Shown one piece after another: positions 8,797-18,417 of a DNA stretch of 64,000 nucleotides; positions within the stretch are counted from its first letter, which is position 1; each line of letters opens with the position of its first letter. The stretch is taken from NCBI GenBank assembly GCA_016844945.1, contig JAERTJ010000073.1, forward strand, positions 1 to 64,000. The letters run 5' to 3'. The stretch comes from Fidelibacterota bacterium. GTDB lineage: Bacteria > Fidelibacterota > UBA8477 > JABMPR01. The notes beneath the pieces are model-generated. The model had not been told where the DNA came from and made no database searches. It saw only the letters and a program-made list of their open reading frames with translations. Made by a program: the position numbers and the translations under genes.

Positions 8797-11700
8797 TTAC
8801 TCATTCAAGACCAGACTTAAACGTTGATTCACCTGTTGATCATAAAGGGCTTTACTATCCAGGAGCTGCATAACCAGTGGGGTAATTTTTGTAAATTTTG
8901 CTTTTTCTGCCTCCCATTCATCAAGGATAATGGATGTCTTCAGTGACCCGGTATGAAAGCGGTGTCGTTCAAGAAGCCTTGTAATGGAAAACTCATCCAC
9001 TTCTTCAAGTGGTTCAGCCACAACAAAATCCGTATTCAGATGATCTTTGTCTTCATCACTCAGGTCATACAGATAGGCTGTACCTCCTGTCATCCCAGAT
9101 CCAAAATTGAAACCAATCTCACCAAGAACGATGACTGTACCACGAGTCATATACTCACAGGCATGGTTACCTACGCCCTCAACCACTGCCGACGTGCCAC
9201 TATTTCGAACAGCAAAACGTTCGTTGGCACGACCAGCTACAAACAGGGTTCCACCAGTTGCGCCATACAAAGCCACATTGCCAATCATGGTATGTTCTTT
9301 CCCGGGAACGCGGATATCGCGAGGCATACGAATGGTAATCAGTCCACCACTCATTCCCTTCCCAACATAGTCATTCGCCAGACCCTTAAGCCGGAGTTCA
9401 AGCCCGTGAGTAAGAAATGCCCCAAAACTCTGACCTGCCACCCCTCTCAGGCGATATTGAAGTGTGCCATTGAACTGACCTTCACCAAAGAGAAAGGCAA
9501 TCTCACCTGCCATTCGGGTGCCAATAGCCCGGTCTTTATTGCTTACACGATCCCTGATCACTGCCTGACCGTGCGTTAACAATTCTTTGTGAATTCCCTC
9601 CAGGATTTTCTCATCAAAGCTGGGAAATTTTCTTCCAACATTTTGCGCCTCCTTTTTCTTGATCCAATCCCTTCTCAGTGTTGGTTCAAGAATTGCGGAA
9701 AAATCCACATTTGAGTAGACCTCTGATGCTTCTTCATTTTCCTTGACCTCTAACAAATCATTCCGTCCCAATAGAGCTTCAATACTTTCCAGTCCAAGTT
9801 GAGAAAGCTGATCCCTAACATCTTCTGCCAGGAGCTTGAAGAAGGAAGCCAATTCTTCCGCCGTTCCTTTGAACTTTTTCCTTAACTCCAAATCTTGTGT
9901 CGCAATTCCCACAGGACAATTGTTCTGGTGACAGCGACGTACCATGACACAACCAATAGCCATGAGTGCCACAGATCCAAAATCATATTCTTCAGCGCCC
10001 AGAGCAGTAGCCACAAGAATGTCTTTGGCTTCCATAATTCCACCATCAACACGGAGCGTAACCTTGCTTCTTAATTTATTGGCCAGGAGTGCCTGGTGGG
10101 TTTCAGCCAGACCTGTTTCCCAGGCCATACCCGTGTGCTTCATAGAACCTAGTGGAGTGGCTCCTGTTCCGCCATCTCCAGCGGAGACAATTACAATATC
10201 AGCACCCGCCTTGGCTACACCACAGGCAACAATTCCAATTCCCGGCTGAGATGCCAGTTTGACTGAAATCTTAGCTCTTGGGTTACTTTCTTTCAAGTCG
10301 TAGATGAGTTGCGCCAGGTCTTCAATAGAGTAGATATCATGATGCGGTGGGGGTGAAATGAGGGGTATGCCAGGTGTTGCAGATCGGGCAGTGGCTATCT
10401 CAACACTGACTTTTTGACCTGGTAGTTGCCCACCTTCACCCGGTTTAGCACCTTGTGCAATCTTGATTTGCAATTCCTGTGCTGCGGCTAGATAATCAGC
10501 TTTAACACCAAACCGCCCGCTGGCAATCTGTTTGGTGTGGGCATTCATATGATCGTTTTGTTTGAACAACAAATAGCGATCTGGTGTTTCGCCCCCTTCT
10601 CCTGTATTACTCCGACCATGAACCAGAGCGATCCCCTTGGTCAACACTCGGTGTGCCTCATCGCTGAGAGCTCCAAAACTCATGGCTGCAACTCCAAAGC
10701 GGCGAGTGATTTGGTCCCCTGACTCAACTTTTGCTTGCCCTGGCCGAGCTGATTTTTTTAGCTCAAGTAAATCCCTGAGATAGATTTTGCCCCTGGGCTT
10801 TTTGGCTTTCTCTGGCTGGTGAGTCGCCCGTTTTCGAATCTGTTTTGCTATCGCAGGGCTATAACCATGGGATTCTCCATTACGTTTTACCCTGAATAAG
10901 CCAATATCTTCCAACTCATCTTTACCCTCACTAAAAACATCTGCATGTCGCTGACATACACGTTTCTGAATCATCTCCAGATTATCCCCACCAATATTCG
11001 GGTTTAGTGATGGTATCCAGGTCTCTAGAAAATCTGAGTGCAAGCCAATCGTATGTAATAACATGGAGCCCTGGTATGAGCTGAAAGTAGAAATTCCCAT
11101 CTTAGCCATACTTTTGAGCAAACCCTTTTCCAATGCAAAGCGATAGTTATCCATGCCTGTGAGCCAGTCTTCCTCATCTAATGTTTCCCTGATGAGTTCA
11201 TAAGCCATATATGGATATACTGCACTGGCACCCAACGTGGTCAACACCGAGATATGGTGATCCTCATAGACATCCCCTGCCAGACATATCAGTGAGACAT
11301 CACTTCTAATTTTTCGTTTCACCAGGTCGTGGTGTACAGCAGATACGACCAATGCCATGGGGATAGGGATGTGGTTTTCATCGATATGCTCATCACTGAG
11401 AAATAAGATGCGTTTACCGGTTTCAATAGCTCCGGCACATTCATCCTGAATTTGCCTGAGGCGCTTCTCAAAAGCTTGACCCTTTTCTGCCAGTACAGAG
11501 ATAATCTCATGCTTGAATTTTTTGTATTTCTGCATGAGCCAACGGACCTCCCGCGGCGATAAAATGGGGCTAGCAATCCGGATAGCCCCGTGAAAGGCTG
11601 GTTCAGTGGCTAATAAATTCTCTTCACTACCCAGATAATGATAGAGACTCATCATGAGACGTTCACGAATCGGATCAATAGGTGGATTGGTAACTTGAGC

Positions 11701-13308
11701 AAATGCCTGTACAAAATAGTCGTAGAAACTGCGACCTTTCTGAGACAGAAAAGCCGGGGGCGTATCATCCCCCATAGCTCCAACGGGTTCTAAGGGAACA
11801 GCACTCAGAGGTTTAGTGAATCTTTCTACAGATTCCTGATGCCAGCCATGAGCAAGACGCAATCGCTTGTCAAAACCCCCCTGGGGAATACCAAAAGCTC
11901 CAAACTCCTCTTGCTTGTCCTGACGTACCAATCTCAGGAAGTTCTTCTCCATGAGCTTTCCATAGTCAGCCTGCTTTGCCATCCGGGATTTAATTTCTGT
12001 GTTGCTCTCAACACCTCCACTCAAGGAAACTGAATAAATTTCGCCTGATGACATGTGGTGATGAACAATCAAGTCATCATCATCTACATCCACAACTCCT
12101 GCTTCTGATGCCATGATGACCAGACCACTTTTGGTTCTGGTGTAGCGTAGAGGACGTAGGCCGTTACGATCCAACTTGGCTCCAACAGTTTCGCCGTCAG
12201 TGAAAATCAGAGCAGCTGGCCCATCCCAGGGCTCCATAAAATTTTCATGATACATATAGAAATCGATGAGCGAGCGATCCATCTGAGGAAAACCACTATA
12301 GGGATCCGGGACCATCATCATCATAGCGTGATGTGGATCCTTGCCACTTTGCACCAAAACACCAAAGACTTCATCGAAGGTGGCGGAGTCGCTGTATTTA
12401 GGGGTCACTATGGGTCGGATGATATTAAAATCTTCTTCCCAGAAGTCCGATTTTAGCTGTCGTTCACGGGCATTCATCCAGAGTCGGTTACCACGAATGG
12501 TGTTGATTTCTCCATTATGTGCAATCCCGTGAAAAGGTTGGGCCATTTCCCAGGAAGGGTTTGTGTTAGTGGAGAAACGTTCATGAAAAATTGCCATGCG
12601 TGATTTAAACTCTGGCTCACGAAGGTCTGGATAGAACTGAGCGAGTTGATACGATGATAGAAGACCTTTGTACACCATGGTACGCGTAGAAAGACTACAA
12701 AAATAAAGGGATTGCTTGCCTATTCTGGGCCCGTGTTCAAATTTTTTACGAAGGAGATAGGCCTGTTGTTCAGATGAGTATTTCTTATGACTTGATATGG
12801 CAAAAAAGGCATGCAGAATATCAGGCTGGTTGGCCTGGGCTATACTACCTAAATATTGGGGTTTGATAGGAACTTGTAATATTCCAAGAAATCGAGCTCC
12901 CATGCTTAGAGCCACCTTGGTCAGCATTTTTTCCAGTTCCTGGATGTCAACATCTCTGGAGAAAATCACCCCAAGTGCCAGCTGTTCCCTGGCTTTGGGT
13001 TTTTTGATTCCAGCTGTCTCCATCCGTTTTTTAAAGAATGTCCAGGGAATATCAACCAGCAATCCAGCACCATCGCCTGTATCCTCGTCGAAACCCTTGC
13101 CCCCCCGATGCTCCAGACGATTTAATGCCTTCAAGCTGAGCTCAACAACTCGCCTGCTGGCAACACCTGATTCTTCGGCGATAAATCCCACACCACATGC
13201 ATCATGATGATCATCTGGATTGTACAATGGGTAACTTGCTTCTTCTATATTGAATTCATCTGTAGATCTATTGAAGTTAGCCTGGGAAAGGTTCTGTGGA
13301 ATTTGCAT
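8797..13308 (-). CDS. gltB: glutamate synthase large (alpha) subunit
   Basis: The 1503-residue enzyme transfers the amide of glutamine to 2-oxoglutarate. The class II glutamine amidotransferase domain starts after a 37-residue propeptide at Cys38 (DACGVGFIAEESG), which becomes the N-terminal nucleophile. The FMN-binding synthase domain carries AKPGEGGQLPGQKVS and VIVSAGDGGTGATPLGSMKH. The 3Fe-4S cysteines are in CVMVRRCHQNNCPVGIATQ (C-x5-C-x4-C). The C-terminal GXGXG beta-helix domain follows (GNVALYGATGGTLFVAGRAN). No small subunit gltD is next to it, so the electron donor (a distant GltD or ferredoxin) is unknown. It lies 82 bases after proA on the same strand and supplies glutamate, the precursor of the Pro and Arg genes upstream. 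Confidence 0.96.
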   Translation of the reverse strand: MQIPQNLSQANFNRSTDEFNIEEASYPLYNPDDHHDACGVGFIAEESGVASRRVVELSLKALNRLEHRGGKGFDEDTGDGAGLLVDIPWTFFKKRMETAGIKKPKAREQLALGVIFSRDVDIQELEKMLTKVALSMGARFLGILQVPIKPQYLGSIAQANQPDILHAFFAISSHKKYSSEQQAYLLRKKFEHGPRIGKQSLYFCSLSTRTMVYKGLLSSYQLAQFYPDLREPEFKSRMAIFHERFSTNTNPSWEMAQPFHGIAHNGEINTIRGNRLWMNARERQLKSDFWEEDFNIIRPIVTPKYSDSATFDEVFGVLVQSGKDPHHAMMMMVPDPYSGFPQMDRSLIDFYMYHENFMEPWDGPAALIFTDGETVGAKLDRNGLRPLRYTRTKSGLVIMASEAGVVDVDDDDLIVHHHMSSGEIYSVSLSGGVESNTEIKSRMAKQADYGKLMEKNFLRLVRQDKQEEFGAFGIPQGGFDKRLRLAHGWHQESVERFTKPLSAVPLEPVGAMGDDTPPAFLSQKGRSFYDYFVQAFAQVTNPPIDPIRERLMMSLYHYLGSEENLLATEPAFHGAIRIASPILSPREVRWLMQKYKKFKHEIISVLAEKGQAFEKRLRQIQDECAGAIETGKRILFLSDEHIDENHIPIPMALVVSAVHHDLVKRKIRSDVSLICLAGDVYEDHHISVLTTLGASAVYPYMAYELIRETLDEEDWLTGMDNYRFALEKGLLKSMAKMGISTFSSYQGSMLLHTIGLHSDFLETWIPSLNPNIGGDNLEMIQKRVCQRHADVFSEGKDELEDIGLFRVKRNGESHGYSPAIAKQIRKRATHQPEKAKKPRGKIYLRDLLELKKSARPGQAKVESGDQITRRFGVAAMSFGALSDEAHRVLTKGIALVHGRSNTGEGGETPDRYLLFKQNDHMNAHTKQIASGRFGVKADYLAAAQELQIKIAQGAKPGEGGQLPGQKVSVEIATARSATPGIPLISPPPHHDIYSIEDLAQLIYDLKESNPRAKISVKLASQPGIGIVACGVAKAGADIVIVSAGDGGTGATPLGSMKHTGMAWETGLAETHQALLANKLRSKVTLRVDGGIMEAKDILVATALGAEEYDFGSVALMAIGCVMVRRCHQNNCPVGIATQDLELRKKFKGTAEELASFFKLLAEDVRDQLSQLGLESIEALLGRNDLLEVKENEEASEVYSNVDFSAILEPTLRRDWIKKKEAQNVGRKFPSFDEKILEGIHKELLTHGQAVIRDRVSNKDRAIGTRMAGEIAFLFGEGQFNGTLQYRLRGVAGQSFGAFLTHGLELRLKGLANDYVGKGMSGGLITIRMPRDIRVPGKEHTMIGNVALYGATGGTLFVAGRANERFAVRNSGTSAVVEGVGNHACEYMTRGTVIVLGEIGFNFGSGMTGGTAYLYDLSDEDKDHLNTDFVVAEPLEEVDEFSITRLLERHRFHTGSLKTSIILDEWEAEKAKFTKITPLVMQLLDSKALYDQQVNQRLSLVLNE

Positions 13309-13390: not shown

Positions 13391-14632
13391 TTAATTTCTT
13401 AATTGTCCATTGCCAGCAACAACAAATTTTGTTGTTGTAAGCTCCTTTAAACCCATGGGACCAAAGGAGTGCAATTTTGTGGTACTGATACCAATCTCTG
13501 CACCCAGACCCAACTCACCCCCATCATTAAATCGAGTTGAAGCATTCACGATGATAGCAGAACTATCCAGTGCTTTGGTGAATTGCTCAATATTCGCATC
13601 ATCTTTACTCAGGATTGCCTCGGTGTGGTCACTGGTGTAGGTCTGGATATGTTTGATGGCACTATCCAGATCCTCCACGATTCTCACTGCTAGGATTAAA
13701 TCTAGAAATTCAGTATCAAAATCACCCAGGGTCGCTGGTTTCACATCTACTGAGTATGATTGGGTTTTTCTGCACCCTCGGATCTCAACCCCTTTTTGGT
13801 CACAAGCCTCTAAAAATTCAGGCATAAATGTGTCTGCTATTTTTTCATGGACCAGGAGGGTTTCCAGGGCGTTGCAGACACCTGGTCTTTGGGCTTTGGC
13901 ATTCATGGCTATGGAAGTTGCCGTGGTCATATCTGCTGATTCATCCACATACATATGGCAGTTCCCTTTGTAGTGTGCAATCACCGGTACGGTGGCAACT
14001 TCATAGATTCTGCGAATTAAACCTTCACCTCCACGTGGTATAATCACATCCAACACATCATTCATCTTTGCCAATTGGTCTACAGTGTCCCGATCTGTTG
14101 TGGGCACAATATTGATGACCTCTTGTAATCCATATTTTGATAATGCTTCTTTGAGAATTTTAACCAAACACAGGTTTGAATGGATGGCTTCTGAGCCACC
14201 GCGAAGCATCAAACCATTTCCGGCAAAAAAACACAGGGAGGCTGCCTCTACGGTCACATTGGGTCTTGATTCGTAAATCACACCAATAACTCCCAGGGGG
14301 ATTCTACGGCGTTGAACCTTGAGTCCATTGGGTCGGGTATATGCTTCAGTAACAGCCCCCACGGGATCCTCAAGCGTGGCTACTTCCAACAGGCTGTCAG
14401 CCATCGCTTTGATCCGATCATCAGTCAATGTGAGACGATCAACCATGGCCTTGGACAACCCATTTGCAATAGCACCCTGACAGTCCTTTTCATTGGTTGT
14501 TTTGATCTCTTCTCTGGATGCCAGGATCATCTCTGCCATATCTTTAAGTATGGACTTTTTGATTTCAGTGCTTACAGTGGGAAGCACTTTGCTAGCCAGC
14601 TTGGTACGTTTTCCTAGTTCATGTAAATTCAT
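13391..14632 (-). CDS. proA: gamma-glutamyl phosphate reductase
   Basis: The 413-residue NADPH-dependent enzyme reduces gamma-glutamyl phosphate to glutamate semialdehyde in proline synthesis. It has the aldehyde-dehydrogenase fold: IPLGVIGVIYESRPNVTVEA, IPRGGEGLIRRIYEVATVPV, and the catalytic Cys in NAKAQRPGVCNALETLLVH. The C-terminal STRFNDGGELGLGAEIGIST is also diagnostic. The length is normal. The ATG overlaps the proB stop in an ATGA junction. Confidence 0.97.
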   Translation of the reverse strand: MNLHELGKRTKLASKVLPTVSTEIKKSILKDMAEMILASREEIKTTNEKDCQGAIANGLSKAMVDRLTLTDDRIKAMADSLLEVATLEDPVGAVTEAYTRPNGLKVQRRRIPLGVIGVIYESRPNVTVEAASLCFFAGNGLMLRGGSEAIHSNLCLVKILKEALSKYGLQEVINIVPTTDRDTVDQLAKMNDVLDVIIPRGGEGLIRRIYEVATVPVIAHYKGNCHMYVDESADMTTATSIAMNAKAQRPGVCNALETLLVHEKIADTFMPEFLEACDQKGVEIRGCRKTQSYSVDVKPATLGDFDTEFLDLILAVRIVEDLDSAIKHIQTYTSDHTEAILSKDDANIEQFTKALDSSAIIVNASTRFNDGGELGLGAEIGISTTKLHSFGPMGLKELTTTKFVVAGNGQLRN

Positions 14633-15759
14633 AATCTTTCCGATGCGGCGACCATATTTTCACGATGGATCACACTTCTGCGGTGTTTATATCCCAGGAT
14701 TGCTTCAATGTCTCCTGACTTACACCCCGCAATTTTCTGGATTTCATCTTGATTGTACTCTACGATACCGCGTATTATTTCAGTTCCATCAGCCAGACAG
14801 CACACAACACCATCTCCACGTTTGAAATCTCCTCGAGTGGACACAATCCCCGAGGCAAGCAGGCTGGCTTTGTTTTGCCTTAATGCCGTAGCAGCGCCCT
14901 GGTCAATAACGATCACTGCTTTGGGTTTTAGGGCATGGGCGATATAGGCACGCCAGGCGTTTAATTCGTTACGTTCCGGGTAAATGATGGTCCCTATGTT
15001 TTCTCCCCTAACCACTGATGCCAAGACATTTTCCCGGCGACTGTTGGCAATCACGCATGGAACCCCATACCGTGCAGCCATGGCAGGTGCTTCAAGCTTG
15101 GTAGCGATTCCTCCACGCCCCATTCCCCTCACTTTTTCACGTGACAGTTCCTTTTTCAGTTGCTCAAGATCTGGCAGAGAAAGTTCGTCTAAAAATTTAG
15201 CATCGGAGTGCTTGAGTGGGTTCTTATTGGCAATACCATCCACATTGGAGAGGATGATATATAGGTCGGCGCTGACCAGGTTGGTGCAGAGAGCTCCGAG
15301 TTGATCATTATCGCTAAAGCGTATCTCTTCAGTGGAGACGCTATCATTTTCATTGATGATGGGGATAATCTGGCTGTTCAACAGGGTGTTAATGGTATTT
15401 CGTGCGCTGAGATATCTACGACGAGATTGAAAATCATCATGGGTCAATAAAAGCTGTGCTGTATTCAGGTTGTATGCCTGGAAATACTGTTGGAAATAGC
15501 GCATAAGAATGGGTTGTCCGATTGCTGCGGCGGCCTGATTATTATCAAGGGAAGCAATTTTCTCATTTAATAGTCCCATACCGGCTGCCACCGCACCACT
15601 GGTGACCAGAACAACTTCCAGACCGTCATGAACCAATACTGCCACCTGACGCGTCACTTCAATGATCTGGCTCTCCTGAATTTTTTTATCCGCGCCACAC
15701 AGACTGGAACTACCAATCTTGACGACAACACGATTCAGTTTGGGGAGTTGTCGGGTCAT
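14629..15759 (-). CDS. proB: glutamate 5-kinase with PUA domain
   Basis: The 376-residue protein phosphorylates glutamate, the first step of proline synthesis. The amino acid kinase domain shows VVVKIGSSSLCG and LVTSGAVAAGMGLL at the N-terminus, then IPIINENDSVSTEEIRFSDN and DGIANKNP. GMGRGGIATKLEAPAMAARY is the conserved kinase segment. A PUA domain occupies the last 90 residues (AWRAYIAHALKPKAVIVIDQ onward). Its ATG overlaps the argH stop by one base (TAATG), and its own stop overlaps the proA start. Proline feedback is known for the family, not shown here. Confidence 0.97.
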   Translation of the reverse strand: MTRQLPKLNRVVVKIGSSSLCGADKKIQESQIIEVTRQVAVLVHDGLEVVLVTSGAVAAGMGLLNEKIASLDNNQAAAAIGQPILMRYFQQYFQAYNLNTAQLLLTHDDFQSRRRYLSARNTINTLLNSQIIPIINENDSVSTEEIRFSDNDQLGALCTNLVSADLYIILSNVDGIANKNPLKHSDAKFLDELSLPDLEQLKKELSREKVRGMGRGGIATKLEAPAMAARYGVPCVIANSRRENVLASVVRGENIGTIIYPERNELNAWRAYIAHALKPKAVIVIDQGAATALRQNKASLLASGIVSTRGDFKRGDGVVCCLADGTEIIRGIVEYNQDEIQKIAGCKSGDIEAILGYKHRRSVIHRENMVAASERL

Positions 15760-16946
15760 TATTCCTCAGAAATTGATTTAGCAATCTGTTGATAGGCATC
15801 CCGAAAGGGCACACCCTGCTTAACCAGATCGTAAGCTTTTTCAGTGGCATACAGATCCTTACTCATAGCCTGATCACAATTCTCAGGATCAACCTCAAGG
15901 TTTTGTATCAACAATGTCATGACCTTCAATGACTCAAGCGTGACCTTAAATGCTTTCATGACAGGTTCTTTGGTGAGCTGCAAATCCCGGTTGTATCCAG
16001 AGATGAGATTACTGACAATGTTTGAAACCTGATATTCACAGGCCGTCACAACATGATGTTTTGCCCTGAGTAACTCCAACACATCTGGGTTTTTCTTCTG
16101 GGGCATAATCGAACTGCCCGTACAGAACTGATCGGGAAGTTTTATAAAGGCAAACTCCTGCATGTTGAAGAGAATAAGATCGTTAGCCATTTTATTCAGG
16201 TCAGCGGTGAATTGAGACAGGGTATGGATTAGCATGACTTCAAATTTTCCACGGCTATACTGGGTATAAATGGGATTCTCCTGGACCTTTGGAAAACCCA
16301 ACTCATTGGCGGCTAATTCACGATCAATATCCAGGGGGACTCCATAGCCTGCTGCCGTACCCAGGGGTGATTGGTCAATAATTTTTGTAACTGCTGAAAG
16401 TAAAATTTCATTGTCCTCCAGACCATTGAGGAATGCTGAAGCCCAGAGTCCAAATGAAGAAGGCATGGCTTTTTGCATGTGGGTATAACCTGGATATCCA
16501 ACCTCACCATAAGTTTGGATAAACTTAGTCAGAGCTTCCTTCAACTGTTTGTTTAGCACAGATAATTCTTCGAGACGGTCTCGGTAGTACAGCCGCAATG
16601 CTGTGAGAACTTGATCATTTCTTGATCTGGCAGTATGTATTTTTTTTCCCTCATCACCCAGAGCAGTGGTTAAATGGGCTTCAATGGCGGTGTGACAGTC
16701 TTCCTGTGAACGTGAGATACTAAACTTACCCTCGGCGTGGAGTTGAATGATGACATCCAACTCCCTTTTGATCAAATCAGCCTCTTCCGTATTCAGTAGA
16801 CCTGCTTTCTCCAGCATACTAGCCTGGGCTTTTGAAGCGATACAATCATATTTGACCAATTCTTGATCCAGGAGATAGTCATCACCCACGGTGAATGCTT
16901 CTATTTGTTGATCCAGTTCAACACCTTTATCCCAAAGTTTTGACAT
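15759..16946 (-). CDS. argH: argininosuccinate lyase, short form
   Basis: The 395-residue enzyme cleaves argininosuccinate to arginine and fumarate. The fumarase/aspartase signature GSSIMPQKKNPDVLELLRAK is present, as are HTARSRNDQVLTALRLY and GYPGYTHMQKAMPSSFGLW. It is about 60 residues shorter than the usual 455-460 because the C-terminus ends soon after VKQGVPFRDAYQQIAKSI. The core catalytic segments are intact, so it is probably functional. The start overlaps the argG stop by one base. Confidence 0.95.
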   Translation of the reverse strand: MSKLWDKGVELDQQIEAFTVGDDYLLDQELVKYDCIASKAQASMLEKAGLLNTEEADLIKRELDVIIQLHAEGKFSISRSQEDCHTAIEAHLTTALGDEGKKIHTARSRNDQVLTALRLYYRDRLEELSVLNKQLKEALTKFIQTYGEVGYPGYTHMQKAMPSSFGLWASAFLNGLEDNEILLSAVTKIIDQSPLGTAAGYGVPLDIDRELAANELGFPKVQENPIYTQYSRGKFEVMLIHTLSQFTADLNKMANDLILFNMQEFAFIKLPDQFCTGSSIMPQKKNPDVLELLRAKHHVVTACEYQVSNIVSNLISGYNRDLQLTKEPVMKAFKVTLESLKVMTLLIQNLEVDPENCDQAMSKDLYATEKAYDLVKQGVPFRDAYQQIAKSISEE

Positions 16947-18199
16947 TATTCAACCTCACGCCAGTTATAGGGCCTATTCTTATGTAGCACCAGTTTATGC
17001 GCCTTGAGTCGGATGGCATTGATATTGATAAAACCTTCAGCATCTGTAGCATCAAAACCACCTTCGATATCCATACTGGATAGATCTTGATCGTAGAGGG
17101 AGTTAGGTGACTCGCGACCGATGGTGACCACATTTCCCTTGTAGAGTGACAGTCTGACTTTTCCATCAATGGCTTCCTGACTTTTATTGAAAGCACTCAT
17201 GATGAAATCCATTTCAGGAGAGAACCAATAGCCATTATAGATCAATTCGGCAAATTTGGGGATAAGCATATCTCTGAGATGCATAACTTCTTTATCCATG
17301 GCTATACCCTCAATATCCCGGTGAGCTGCCCAGAGAATTGTACCAGCCGGTGTCTCGTAAACACCTCTTGACTTGATACCTATATATCGGTTTTCAACCA
17401 TATCAAGTTGACCGATGGCATTCTCACCACCCACATCATTCAGGTAGCTAAACAATTCAAGAGAATCCGTTTTTACGGTACCATCTTCCATATTCAAAAC
17501 ATGGGTCGGGATTCCATTTTTAAAGGTGATCTCTAGTTTTGTTTCCTTATCTGGAGCATCTTTCAAAAGTTTTGAAATACTGTAAACTGAATCATCAGGA
17601 GCCACTGCAGGATCTTCCAGAATTCCAGCTTCATGACTGATATGCATGAGGTTTTCATCTTCACTGTAGGGACGTTTCTTGGAAGCCGTGATCTCAATCC
17701 CATGCTTTTGGGCAAAATTGATGAGATCCGTTCTGCCTTTGAACTCGTTGAGGAACTCAGGATCCTTCCAGGGTGCAATGACTTTGATTTCTGGATTGAG
17801 AGCATAATAGTTCAATTCAAAACGAACCTGATCATTGCCCTTGCCTGTAGAGCCATGTGAGACGTATTGCGCCCCCTCTTTGTTGGCAATGGCAATTTGT
17901 GCTTTCGCCAGGGCTGGACGAGCTAATGAGGTCCCCAGCAAATAACGTCCCTCGTATAGCGCATTTCCCTGGAGTGCTGGCCAGATATACTTTACAACAA
18001 ACTCTTCCCGTAGGTCCTCGGTATAGACCTTGGTTGCCCCTGTGGCGTAGGCTTTTTTCTCAACCGCCTTAAAATCCTCCGTTTGACCTACATTCCCCAC
18101 GAAGCAAATCACTTCATAACCCTTAAGGTCGAGCCATTTCAGAATGACTGAGGTGTCCAACCCCCCGCTGTATGCCAGGACCACTTTCCTTTTACTCAC
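16946..18199 (-). CDS. argG: argininosuccinate synthase
   Basis: The 417-residue ATP-dependent enzyme joins citrulline and aspartate. It begins [19 protein letters not shown], the PP-loop ATP pyrophosphatase motif, and continues with [19 protein letters not shown] and WSLLG-equivalent family segments. It heads the overlapping cluster argG-argH-proB-proA. A strong terminator hairpin lies 40 bases before its ATG, and an arginine-rich leader ORF precedes that, so expression is very probably controlled by attenuation. Confidence 0.97.
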
Positions 18200-18239: not shown

Positions 18240-18270
18240 TAAAAAAAGCCCTGGTAAGGAACCGGGGCTT
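18240..18270 (-). terminator. intrinsic terminator in the argG leader (attenuator)
   Basis: On the minus strand AGCCCCGG (18262-18269) pairs with CCAGGGCT (18247-18254) with one C-A mismatch and a 7-base loop TTCCTTA. A run of seven T follows at once (18241-18247 on the complement), plus flanking A-U pairs. It sits between a leader ORF and argG, upstream of the coding region, so it can only serve as a conditional stop for the argG operon. Confidence 0.85.
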
Positions 18271-18317
18271 TTCTGTTTAAATCTTATTATATTTACAGAG
18301 TTACACACCGGTTCCTT
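18256..18317 (-). promoter_or_regulatory. antiterminator pairing of the arginine attenuator
   Basis: AAGGAACCGG within the last codons of the leader ORF (18308-18317) is perfectly complementary over 10 bases to CCGGTTCCTT (18256-18265). The second segment contains the GG end of the terminator's 5' arm and most of its loop. Formation of this stem therefore excludes the terminator. A ribosome stalled on the Arg codons (18328-18339) leaves the first segment free. A ribosome that reaches the stop codon at 18301 covers it. Confidence 0.78.
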
Positions 18318-18378
18318 CCAAGGATGGGCGGCGGCGGCGAATAATTGTAAGGTTCATATGTCTGGTCATGTTTTTCAT
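18301..18378 (-). CDS. arginine leader peptide (up to 25 aa)
   Basis: The ORF can start at ATG 18378, 18369 or 18357 (all in frame) and ends with TAA at 18301-18303. The peptide ends MNLTIIRRRRPSLEGTGV. Four consecutive CGC Arg codons occupy 18328-18339, and a fifth Arg codon (AGA) is present if an upstream start is used. It lies directly in front of the argG terminator and antiterminator pair. A leader peptide measuring charged tRNA-Arg is the simplest reading. No clear ribosome site precedes any of the three ATGs, which is a weakness. Confidence 0.75.
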   Translation of the reverse strand: MKNMTRHMNLTIIRRRRPSLEGTGV

Positions 18379-18388
18379 TTGCGGAACA

Positions 18389-18417
18389 ATAATAGCTTTT
18401 TGCGCCCCTTAGCGCAA
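18389..18417 (-). promoter_or_regulatory. candidate promoter of the arg leader, overlapped by a palindrome
   Basis: A -10 TATTAT (18389-18394, five of six) lies 17 bases from a poor -35 TTGCGC (18412-18417) on the minus strand. The -35 is one arm of the inverted repeat TTGCGC-CCCTTA-GCGCAA (18400-18417), which could be an operator, for instance for an arginine repressor-type or other regulator (identity unknown). The same intergenic region must hold the divergent metA promoter on the plus strand. I cannot place that one reliably. Confidence 0.4.

Follow-up and report, generated by a model that had tools for sequence, protein, structure and literature searches.

The window analyzed here is a 64,000-nt stretch of DNA from the MAG (~91% complete) of an uncultured marine bacterium of the phylum Candidatus Neomarinimicrobiota, and the best relatives of its argG are found mostly in other MAGs of that phylum. 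On the minus strand of the window, a leader ORF that sits between argG and a divergent metA-like gene (PF04204; plus strand, 18519) precedes a run of arginine and proline biosynthesis genes (Table 1). Two in-frame ATG codons, at 18369 and 18378, set the length of the leader peptide at 22 or 25 residues, respectively, and its sequence, read directly, is (MKN)MTRHMNLTIIRRRRPSLEGTGV. Based on the Arg frequency of seven neighboring genes, four consecutive Arg residues would be expected approximately 0.00013 times per 22 codons. The hairpin with its seven T lies 27 nt past the leader stop codon and 43 nt ahead of argG. Of the 42 window ORFs that are 150 aa or longer, argG alone is preceded by both a terminator and a small ORF rich in any one amino acid.

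An earlier sequence-only reading of this DNA had described a small ORF with four CGC codons that ends at 18301, a strong terminator with seven T, and a 10-base match between 18308-18317 and 18256-18265. Direct reading places the ORF exactly there, the terminator is present, and the match is exact; in the window, the duplex between arm 2 and the 5' side of the terminator has a p value of 0.001 relative to 1000 shuffles.

Table 1. Features of the argG locus within the 64,000-nt window.
Feature	Position	Strand	Remarks
Putative leader promoter	18387..18417	-	TTGCGC at 18417-18412 (TTG, -33 region) and TATTATTG box at 18394-18387
Leader peptide ORF	18301..18378	-	Start ATG 18378 or ATG 18369; stop 18303-18301
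Four CGC Arg codons, proposed sensing codons	18328..18339	-	Read directly
Arm 1 (Arg codons)	18325..18339	-	Pairs with arm 2 in the ribosome-free fold; RNA folding
Arm 2 (antiterminator arm)	18308..18317	-	AAGGAACCGG (18317-18308), perfect 10-base complement of CCGGTTCCTT (18265-18256)
Predicted intrinsic terminator, arms 3 and 4	18241..18272	-	Stem 18272-18244, seven T at 18247-18241; sequence, RNA folding, relatives
argG, argininosuccinate synthase	16946..18199	-	Start 18199
argH, argininosuccinate lyase	15759..16946	-	Short (395 aa)
proB, glutamate 5-kinase-like	14629..15759	-	AA_kinase and PUA domains
proA, glutamate-5-semialdehyde dehydrogenase-like	13391..14632	-	Aldedh domain; name from the sequence-only reading
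gltB-like large gene	8797..13308	-	Uncertain operon member; name from the sequence-only reading

The match of the window's ArgH to TIGR00838 ends at position 388 of 455, and its C-terminal Pfam domain, PF14698, scores below the cut-off. It had also been suggested that gltB might be under the same control as argG. In favor of this suggestion, the gltB-like gene follows proA in the order argG-argH-proB-proA-gltB both here and in three other members of the genus (G227, G229, and G235). Against it stands the 82-nt gap between proA and gltB, in which a TATAAT-like stretch can be seen by eye.

Predicted folds of the leader RNA and a proposed switch

The leader RNA (18382-18234) is predicted to be more stable than shuffled versions of itself (z = -3.76; one of 200 shuffles was as stable). 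In its predicted fold, arm 1 is paired with 18320-18306, at the ORF's end, and the terminator is a hairpin of its own; the sensing codons are held in a protector hairpin, 1:2, a result obtained for the window only. When we folded the RNA that would be left free by a ribosome located at the last Arg codon, arms 2 and 3 paired (-22.0 kcal/mol), and the RNA left free by a ribosome at the stop codon adopted the terminator fold (-18.9 kcal/mol). For the stall geometry, we used general values for the size of the ribosome footprint. In the window, arm 2 starts 13 nt downstream of where the last Arg codon begins and extends as far as the stop codon. This spacing and the predicted folds agree with the earlier proposal that a stalled ribosome frees arm 2 and a ribosome at the stop codon covers it. 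The features of a classical attenuator found here are a run of codons for the product amino acid, an intrinsic terminator before argG, an antiterminator that excludes it, a suitable stall geometry, and a 1:2 hairpin. As modeled, the arrangement of the leader is that of a trp-type attenuator with arms 1 to 4.

From this arrangement we infer leader translation, stalling, termination, and a response to arginine, which would operate as follows. Transcription would begin a few bases ahead of the leader ATG, with a ribosome following RNA polymerase. With ample charged Arg-tRNA, the ribosome would run to the stop codon and cover arm 2, arms 3 and 4 would then form the terminator, and transcription would end before argG. 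With Arg-tRNA in short supply, the ribosome would stall on the CGC run and cover arm 1, so that arm 2 would pair with arm 3, no terminator would form, and argG and the genes beyond it would be transcribed. If the leader were not translated at all, 1:2 and 3:4 would both form and transcription would stop.

Conservation of the leader among relatives

We applied a strict test to the upstream regions of argG genes. The test demands two elements: a terminator hairpin with an energy of -8 kcal/mol or lower, after which no fewer than five of seven bases are T, and, with its stop codon at most 110 nt ahead of this terminator, an ORF of 8-45 codons in which some stretch of six includes three or more Arg. 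Removal of regions that share the same last 160 nt or are shorter than 150 nt reduced 147 upstream regions to 123, among which L001, L015, L033, and L084, whose contigs begin inside argG, count as misses. The test was passed by 19 of the 123 regions. Among the controls, 18 passes were seen in 3690 dinucleotide shuffles and 37 in 5858 random windows; the latter control is conservative because the windows were drawn from the same loci and may include true leaders. Seventeen of the 19 passes fall within the phylum and represent 16 genomes (G187 passes twice). For other amino acids in the same 123 regions, the next highest counts were 5 for Asn, 4 for Ile, and 3 for Lys.

At 14 of 24 loci, pairing between the end of the ORF and the 5' side of the terminator surpassed that of shuffles (p < 0.05; Fisher 3.3e-16, uncorrected for kinship). 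These loci, chosen by eye, comprise the 19 strict-test loci together with L035, L075, L092, L103, and the Lys-rich L115; L245 and L249 lie outside this set and their arms were judged by eye and by fold. Individually, L136 (p 0.78), L138 (p 0.44), L104 (p 0.37), and seven other loci are above p 0.05. The mean energy of a locus's own pair is -19.7, compared with -13.9 for cross-species pairs, and it was reached in 0 of 100000 permutations (also uncorrected for kinship). The arm definition used here was widened after a narrower one had given p < 0.05 at 5 of 19 loci (Fisher 1.4e-8) and, again, 0 of 100000 permutations.

ArgG is found in 68 of 245 genomes of the phylum and, by our own reading, partly by eye, 20 of the 68 carry an Arg leader (G000, G227, G229, G235, G063, G068, G079, G086, G087, G093, G094, G095, G096, G103, G184, G186, G187, G191, G193, and G194; arm pairing is weak in G193 and G194). 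The pattern is not seen in many other ArgG genomes of the phylum, including all argR carriers, f19, G064, G069, G085, G104, G195, and G201, and some ArgG regions are cut by contig ends and unreadable (e.g., G225). In the window's own genus, g1, ArgG is detectable in only 5 of 19 members, which suggests that arginine auxotrophy is common there.

Leaders from the same genus read MTQINISLINIRRRHPQRQGTGV (L082), MTHVNIALINNRRRHPERQGTGV (L083), and MNAPIRNIIRRRHQKISWVPGA (L085). Six leaders of family f17 resemble MLNNRRNNRQNRRRSNHMEGHR (L091, L095, L096, L097, L099, and L145) and two others are looser (L103 and L104), and family f15 contributes MVERRRQVRRSRTPRQNWRFRGIL (L092) and MIGFSNRSGLVRRASENARREDVGVAI (L249). 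The leaders of family f26, MIDQLRRSINRRRASLATGRLREGCS among them, precede an ArgG that is ~45% identical to that of the window. The Arg triplet of the f17 leaders is written with CGA, CGC, and CGT in varied order. Since the codons vary but the encoded residue is still Arg, it is apparently the amino acid that is conserved. Outside the phylum, the pattern occurs at one KSB1 locus (L021) and at three of the eight Thermotogota-titled loci obtained from argG relatives (L035, L047, and L075). Comparison of argG upstream regions had been proposed as a check on the attenuator, with a lack of conservation of run and stems counting against it. The Arg run recurs in three further members of the genus and in additional families of the phylum, and both run and stems are kept in relatives, contrary to what a lack of conservation would have entailed.

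The strict test found nothing upstream of carA (0/21), argF (0/21), or the ornithine aminotransferase (OAT)-like gene (0/7; 0/49 together), so only part of the pathway would be controlled in this way. Several loci differ in what precedes argG. In f17, the Arg leader of L009 is immediately preceded by a carB-like gene (L009:5-2803), placing the attenuator between carB and argG. Upstream of the Arg leader of G068 (C31:23470-23941), only the first 157 profile positions of carA are matched, in two pieces. At L090 (G028), argG follows histidine biosynthesis genes (HisA-like, phosphoribosyl-AMP cyclohydrolase), and the same ending was recognized by eye ahead of argG at L086-L089, in f19 and G085 loci. 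The f26 loci L131-L139 combine a distant ArgG with Arg leaders of their own, and G187 has two f26-type argG copies with a leader before each.

A putative promoter close to the leader start

A sigma-70 scan did not list a leader promoter. We also considered TAnnTTTG, a consensus of the Bacteroidota type. A TAnnTTTG-like box (at least 4 of 6 positions) precedes the leader start in 19 of 22 loci, compared with 27% of random positions, and at 5 of 6 positions it does so in 11 of 22 loci, compared with 5.7%. The best box lies 6-8 nt before the leader start in 18 of 22 loci, within a searched range of 4-10 nt, and TTG is present in the -33 region of 19 of 22 loci, a figure without a background rate. 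L136 and the Thermotogota loci were left out of these 22, and for L081, L082, L083, L091, and L145 the upstream in-frame start was used, which favors a short distance. The TAnnTTTG and TTG pattern thus appears to fit a leader promoter better than sigma-70 does. Since the box sits close before the leader start in most loci, the transcript would start within a few bases of the leader ATG, making the leader peptide near-leaderless. Transcription starting downstream of 18301, an outcome that the sequence-only reading had named as evidence against the attenuator, is contradicted at the level of prediction by this promoter-like pair just upstream of the leader start in most loci. On the plus strand, a small hairpin over the putative promoter (18400-18417) scores as a terminator-like site.

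ArgR and other known regulators

An ArgR operator was rejected as an explanation of the leader for lack of any ArgR match (PF01316, PF02863) in the window's own genome, although this absence alone is no proof because the MAG is ~91% complete. Across the phylum, 23 of the 245 genomes have ArgR (PF02863), and each of these belongs to the 68 that have ArgG. In 22 of the 23, it lies on the same contig as argG and within ~130 nt of it; in the remaining genome, G005, the argG contig is cut. ArgR occurs in 0 of 20 leader genomes compared with 23 of the 48 other ArgG genomes (Fisher p 4.6e-5, uncorrected for kinship). The exchange of ArgR for the leader is not a complete partition, since the other 25 ArgG genomes have neither or are unreadable.

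In an ArgG tree of 74 rows, the leader rows of f1, f15, and f17 group within a single supported clade (96/94), whose 22 rows also include 8 that lack a leader and 2 that are Lys-rich. Label changes on the tree number 2 for ArgR rows and 9 for leader rows; L084 is labeled 'none' only because it is cut, and L145 was left out. Given that the f26 leaders sit on a distant ArgG lineage, the switch would have arisen more than once or been re-used.

Other regulators were considered as well. No T-box (RF00230) was found in the window or the leader loci, and neither the window nor 14 of 15 leader-bearing or related loci contains a known Rfam leader or riboswitch at its gathering score. The best sub-threshold Rfam matches are weak (E 0.11 at best) and include Trp, Phe, His, and Thr leaders, the best amino-acid leader being Trp_leader with 18.2 bits against a cut-off of 41. 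TRAP-type control was rejected, there being no PF02081 match in the window's own genome. In a MAG titled Synergistetes, a T-box leader (RF00230, 93.4 bits, cut-off 93) lies just before argG at L031:278-513.

A lysine-rich leader

In G061 (L115), MGIILNQLKRKKNSKKK takes the place of the Arg leader, and the terminator and arm 2 are kept (p 0.003). G060 (L120) has a similar Lys-rich sequence with unread bases. Two LysX-like ligases and matches to argC and argB models follow argG-argH in G061. A leader recoded for lysine would fit the sequences of G061 and G060. However, A-rich DNA gives rise to Lys runs easily, which weakens this reading.

proB-proA and a possible route to ornithine

The product of ProB and ProA, glutamate semialdehyde, could be converted to ornithine by an aminotransferase. 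Other arginine genes were sought in 18 of the 20 leader genomes. ArgF scores over the cut-off in all 18 and ArgJ is found in none; ArgC and ArgB score over the cut-off only in G186 and G187, and the weak sub-threshold ArgB/ArgC matches that exist include one in the window's own genome that is ProB itself. Given the lack of ArgC, ArgB, and ArgJ in 16 of the 18 genomes, these seem unable to use the acetylated or the LysW route, and because ArgB and ArgC are lacking there, the proB-proA pair in this operon may supply ornithine through glutamate semialdehyde. Arginine control of proB-proA may thus be part of the arginine pathway and not a side effect.

The aminotransferase step to ornithine is putative, and its candidate gene is less sure. 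For the OAT-like gene at C92:37083-38312 in the window's own genome, G000, the best NCBIfam model is ornithine aminotransferase at 364 bits, under the cut-off of 378. Seven of the 18 leader genomes have matches of 364-378 bits and G103 reaches 643 bits; in the remaining 10, G227 among them, only class III aminotransferases with weaker scores were found. Two arrangements support proB and proA as arginine genes. The ArgR genome G003 has the order argR-argG-argH-aminotransferase-proB-proA, with an aminotransferase nearest to ArgD but under the cut-off, and G191 has the order proB-proA-argG with the Arg leader and terminator before proB. At the f17 and f15 loci examined, the leader precedes argG-argH without adjacent proBA.

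Alternative explanations

The leader peptide might instead act by nascent-chain arrest, either sensing free arginine or being slowed by its poly-Arg chain, and not by way of Arg-tRNA charging. Arg runs can slow ribosomes, and there is a precedent in the fungal arginine attenuator peptide, which as a nascent chain arrests the ribosome in response to free arginine. Arrest peptides usually conserve further residues, however, and outside the Arg run the peptides considered here vary greatly from family to family. What recurs is the Arg residues and their spacing to arm 2; we therefore regard arrest as very unlikely. It seems similarly improbable that the terminator switch is read by some other factor, such as an RNA-binding protein or a riboswitch-like ligand, beside an incidental Arg-rich ORF. 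A terminator with a complementary arm would by itself fit any antitermination system, but the Arg enrichment is specific and recurs, and neither the window nor 14 leader-bearing or related loci match any Rfam family at its gathering score.

If the hairpin were not a terminator, the leader could work through occlusion or re-initiation of argG translation, or through a Rho-type switch. Both have partial parallels: the S. aureus rbfL leader covers a start site (PMC13009471), and the Salmonella speF leader combines Arg codons with Rho and RNase G (PMC6386406). A hairpin followed by seven T nevertheless stands between the ORF and argG, and such a terminator recurs in leader loci, which makes this explanation extremely improbable. 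The likelihood that an upstream transcript's terminator happens to lie beside a spurious ORF is negligible in our view: although terminators are common (971 of 5858 random windows have one by the strict criterion), the upstream neighbor points away, and the pattern is conserved and specific to arginine.

Comparison with known systems

Ribosome-mediated attenuation by a leader peptide is well known for other amino-acid operons, and ArgR or T-boxes are the regulators usually named for arginine biosynthesis. Judging from sequence, argG-argH-proB-proA is very probably controlled by a ribosome-mediated transcription attenuator tuned to arginine, a known type of mechanism. If correct, this extends ribosome-mediated attenuation to such an operon, in an uncultured phylum, and the related families, which use ArgR or the Arg leader at the same operon and never both in the genomes examined, constitute a natural experiment. 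It would also offer a reason why proBA sit together with arginine genes, and it predicts that arginine is made here without acetylated intermediates.

Taken together, the observations permit a wider reading that we put forward tentatively, as possible rather than probable. A near-leaderless Arg leader would be the standard control of the argG operon in a large Neomarinimicrobiota branch, it and ArgR replacing each other at the same locus. It would govern an unacetylated route (glutamate, ProB, ProA, ornithine aminotransferase, ArgF, ArgG, ArgH), so that arginine supply would also set the flow into glutamate semialdehyde and proline, and in one AT-rich genus with gained LysW-type genes the leader would have been recoded to a lysine run.

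In searches of the open-access attenuation literature, we found no ribosome attenuator of an arginine biosynthetic operon. The main text of PMC2965389 has no occurrence of arginine, argG, argC, or argB. The accessible part of PMC8632094 describes other leader ORF motifs, such as Cys codons ahead of cysS and an Arg-Leu-Arg peptide, along with a motif at carA, and contains no Arg-run leader. The sequence-only reading had remarked that Arg leaders are rarely described, which is fair, yet leaders in which ribosomes pause at Arg codons do exist at Salmonella speF and S. aureus rbf. According to PMC6386406, consecutive Arg codons in orf34 of the speF leader sense arginine by ribosome pausing, in combination with Rho, mRNA folding, and RNase G, to control putrescine synthesis. 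The leader-ORF Arg codons are thus shared with the argG leader, but speF is not an arginine biosynthetic operon controlled through an intrinsic terminator. In rbfL, as PMC13009471 describes it, leader-ORF Arg codons also sense arginine and the start site of rbf is covered; unlike the proposed argG leader, rbfL acts on translation of a biofilm regulator, and low arginine represses. The carA leader of P. aeruginosa shares a leader peptide before an arginine/pyrimidine gene and suspected attenuation, although the gene differs, and PMC4997734 ties its attenuation to pyrimidines and its arginine control to transcription.

Arginine is named as T-box controlled in other species in PMC1262725. An Arg-responsive T-box shares with the leader tRNA-based sensing of arginine before argG (L031 is an example) but differs in that the tRNA binds the RNA directly and no leader peptide is involved. 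ArgR likewise controls arginine genes and sits before argG in other families of the phylum, but it is a protein repressor of initiation. Relative to the trp, his, thr, and phe attenuators, the argG leader is distinguished by arginine as the amino acid, by its uncultured phylum, by its probable near-leaderless start, and by scores below every Rfam gathering cut-off. What it has in common with these same attenuators is a small ORF containing codons for the product, a set of four arms, an intrinsic terminator, and a design in which the outcome would be decided by whether the ribosome has stalled or finished.
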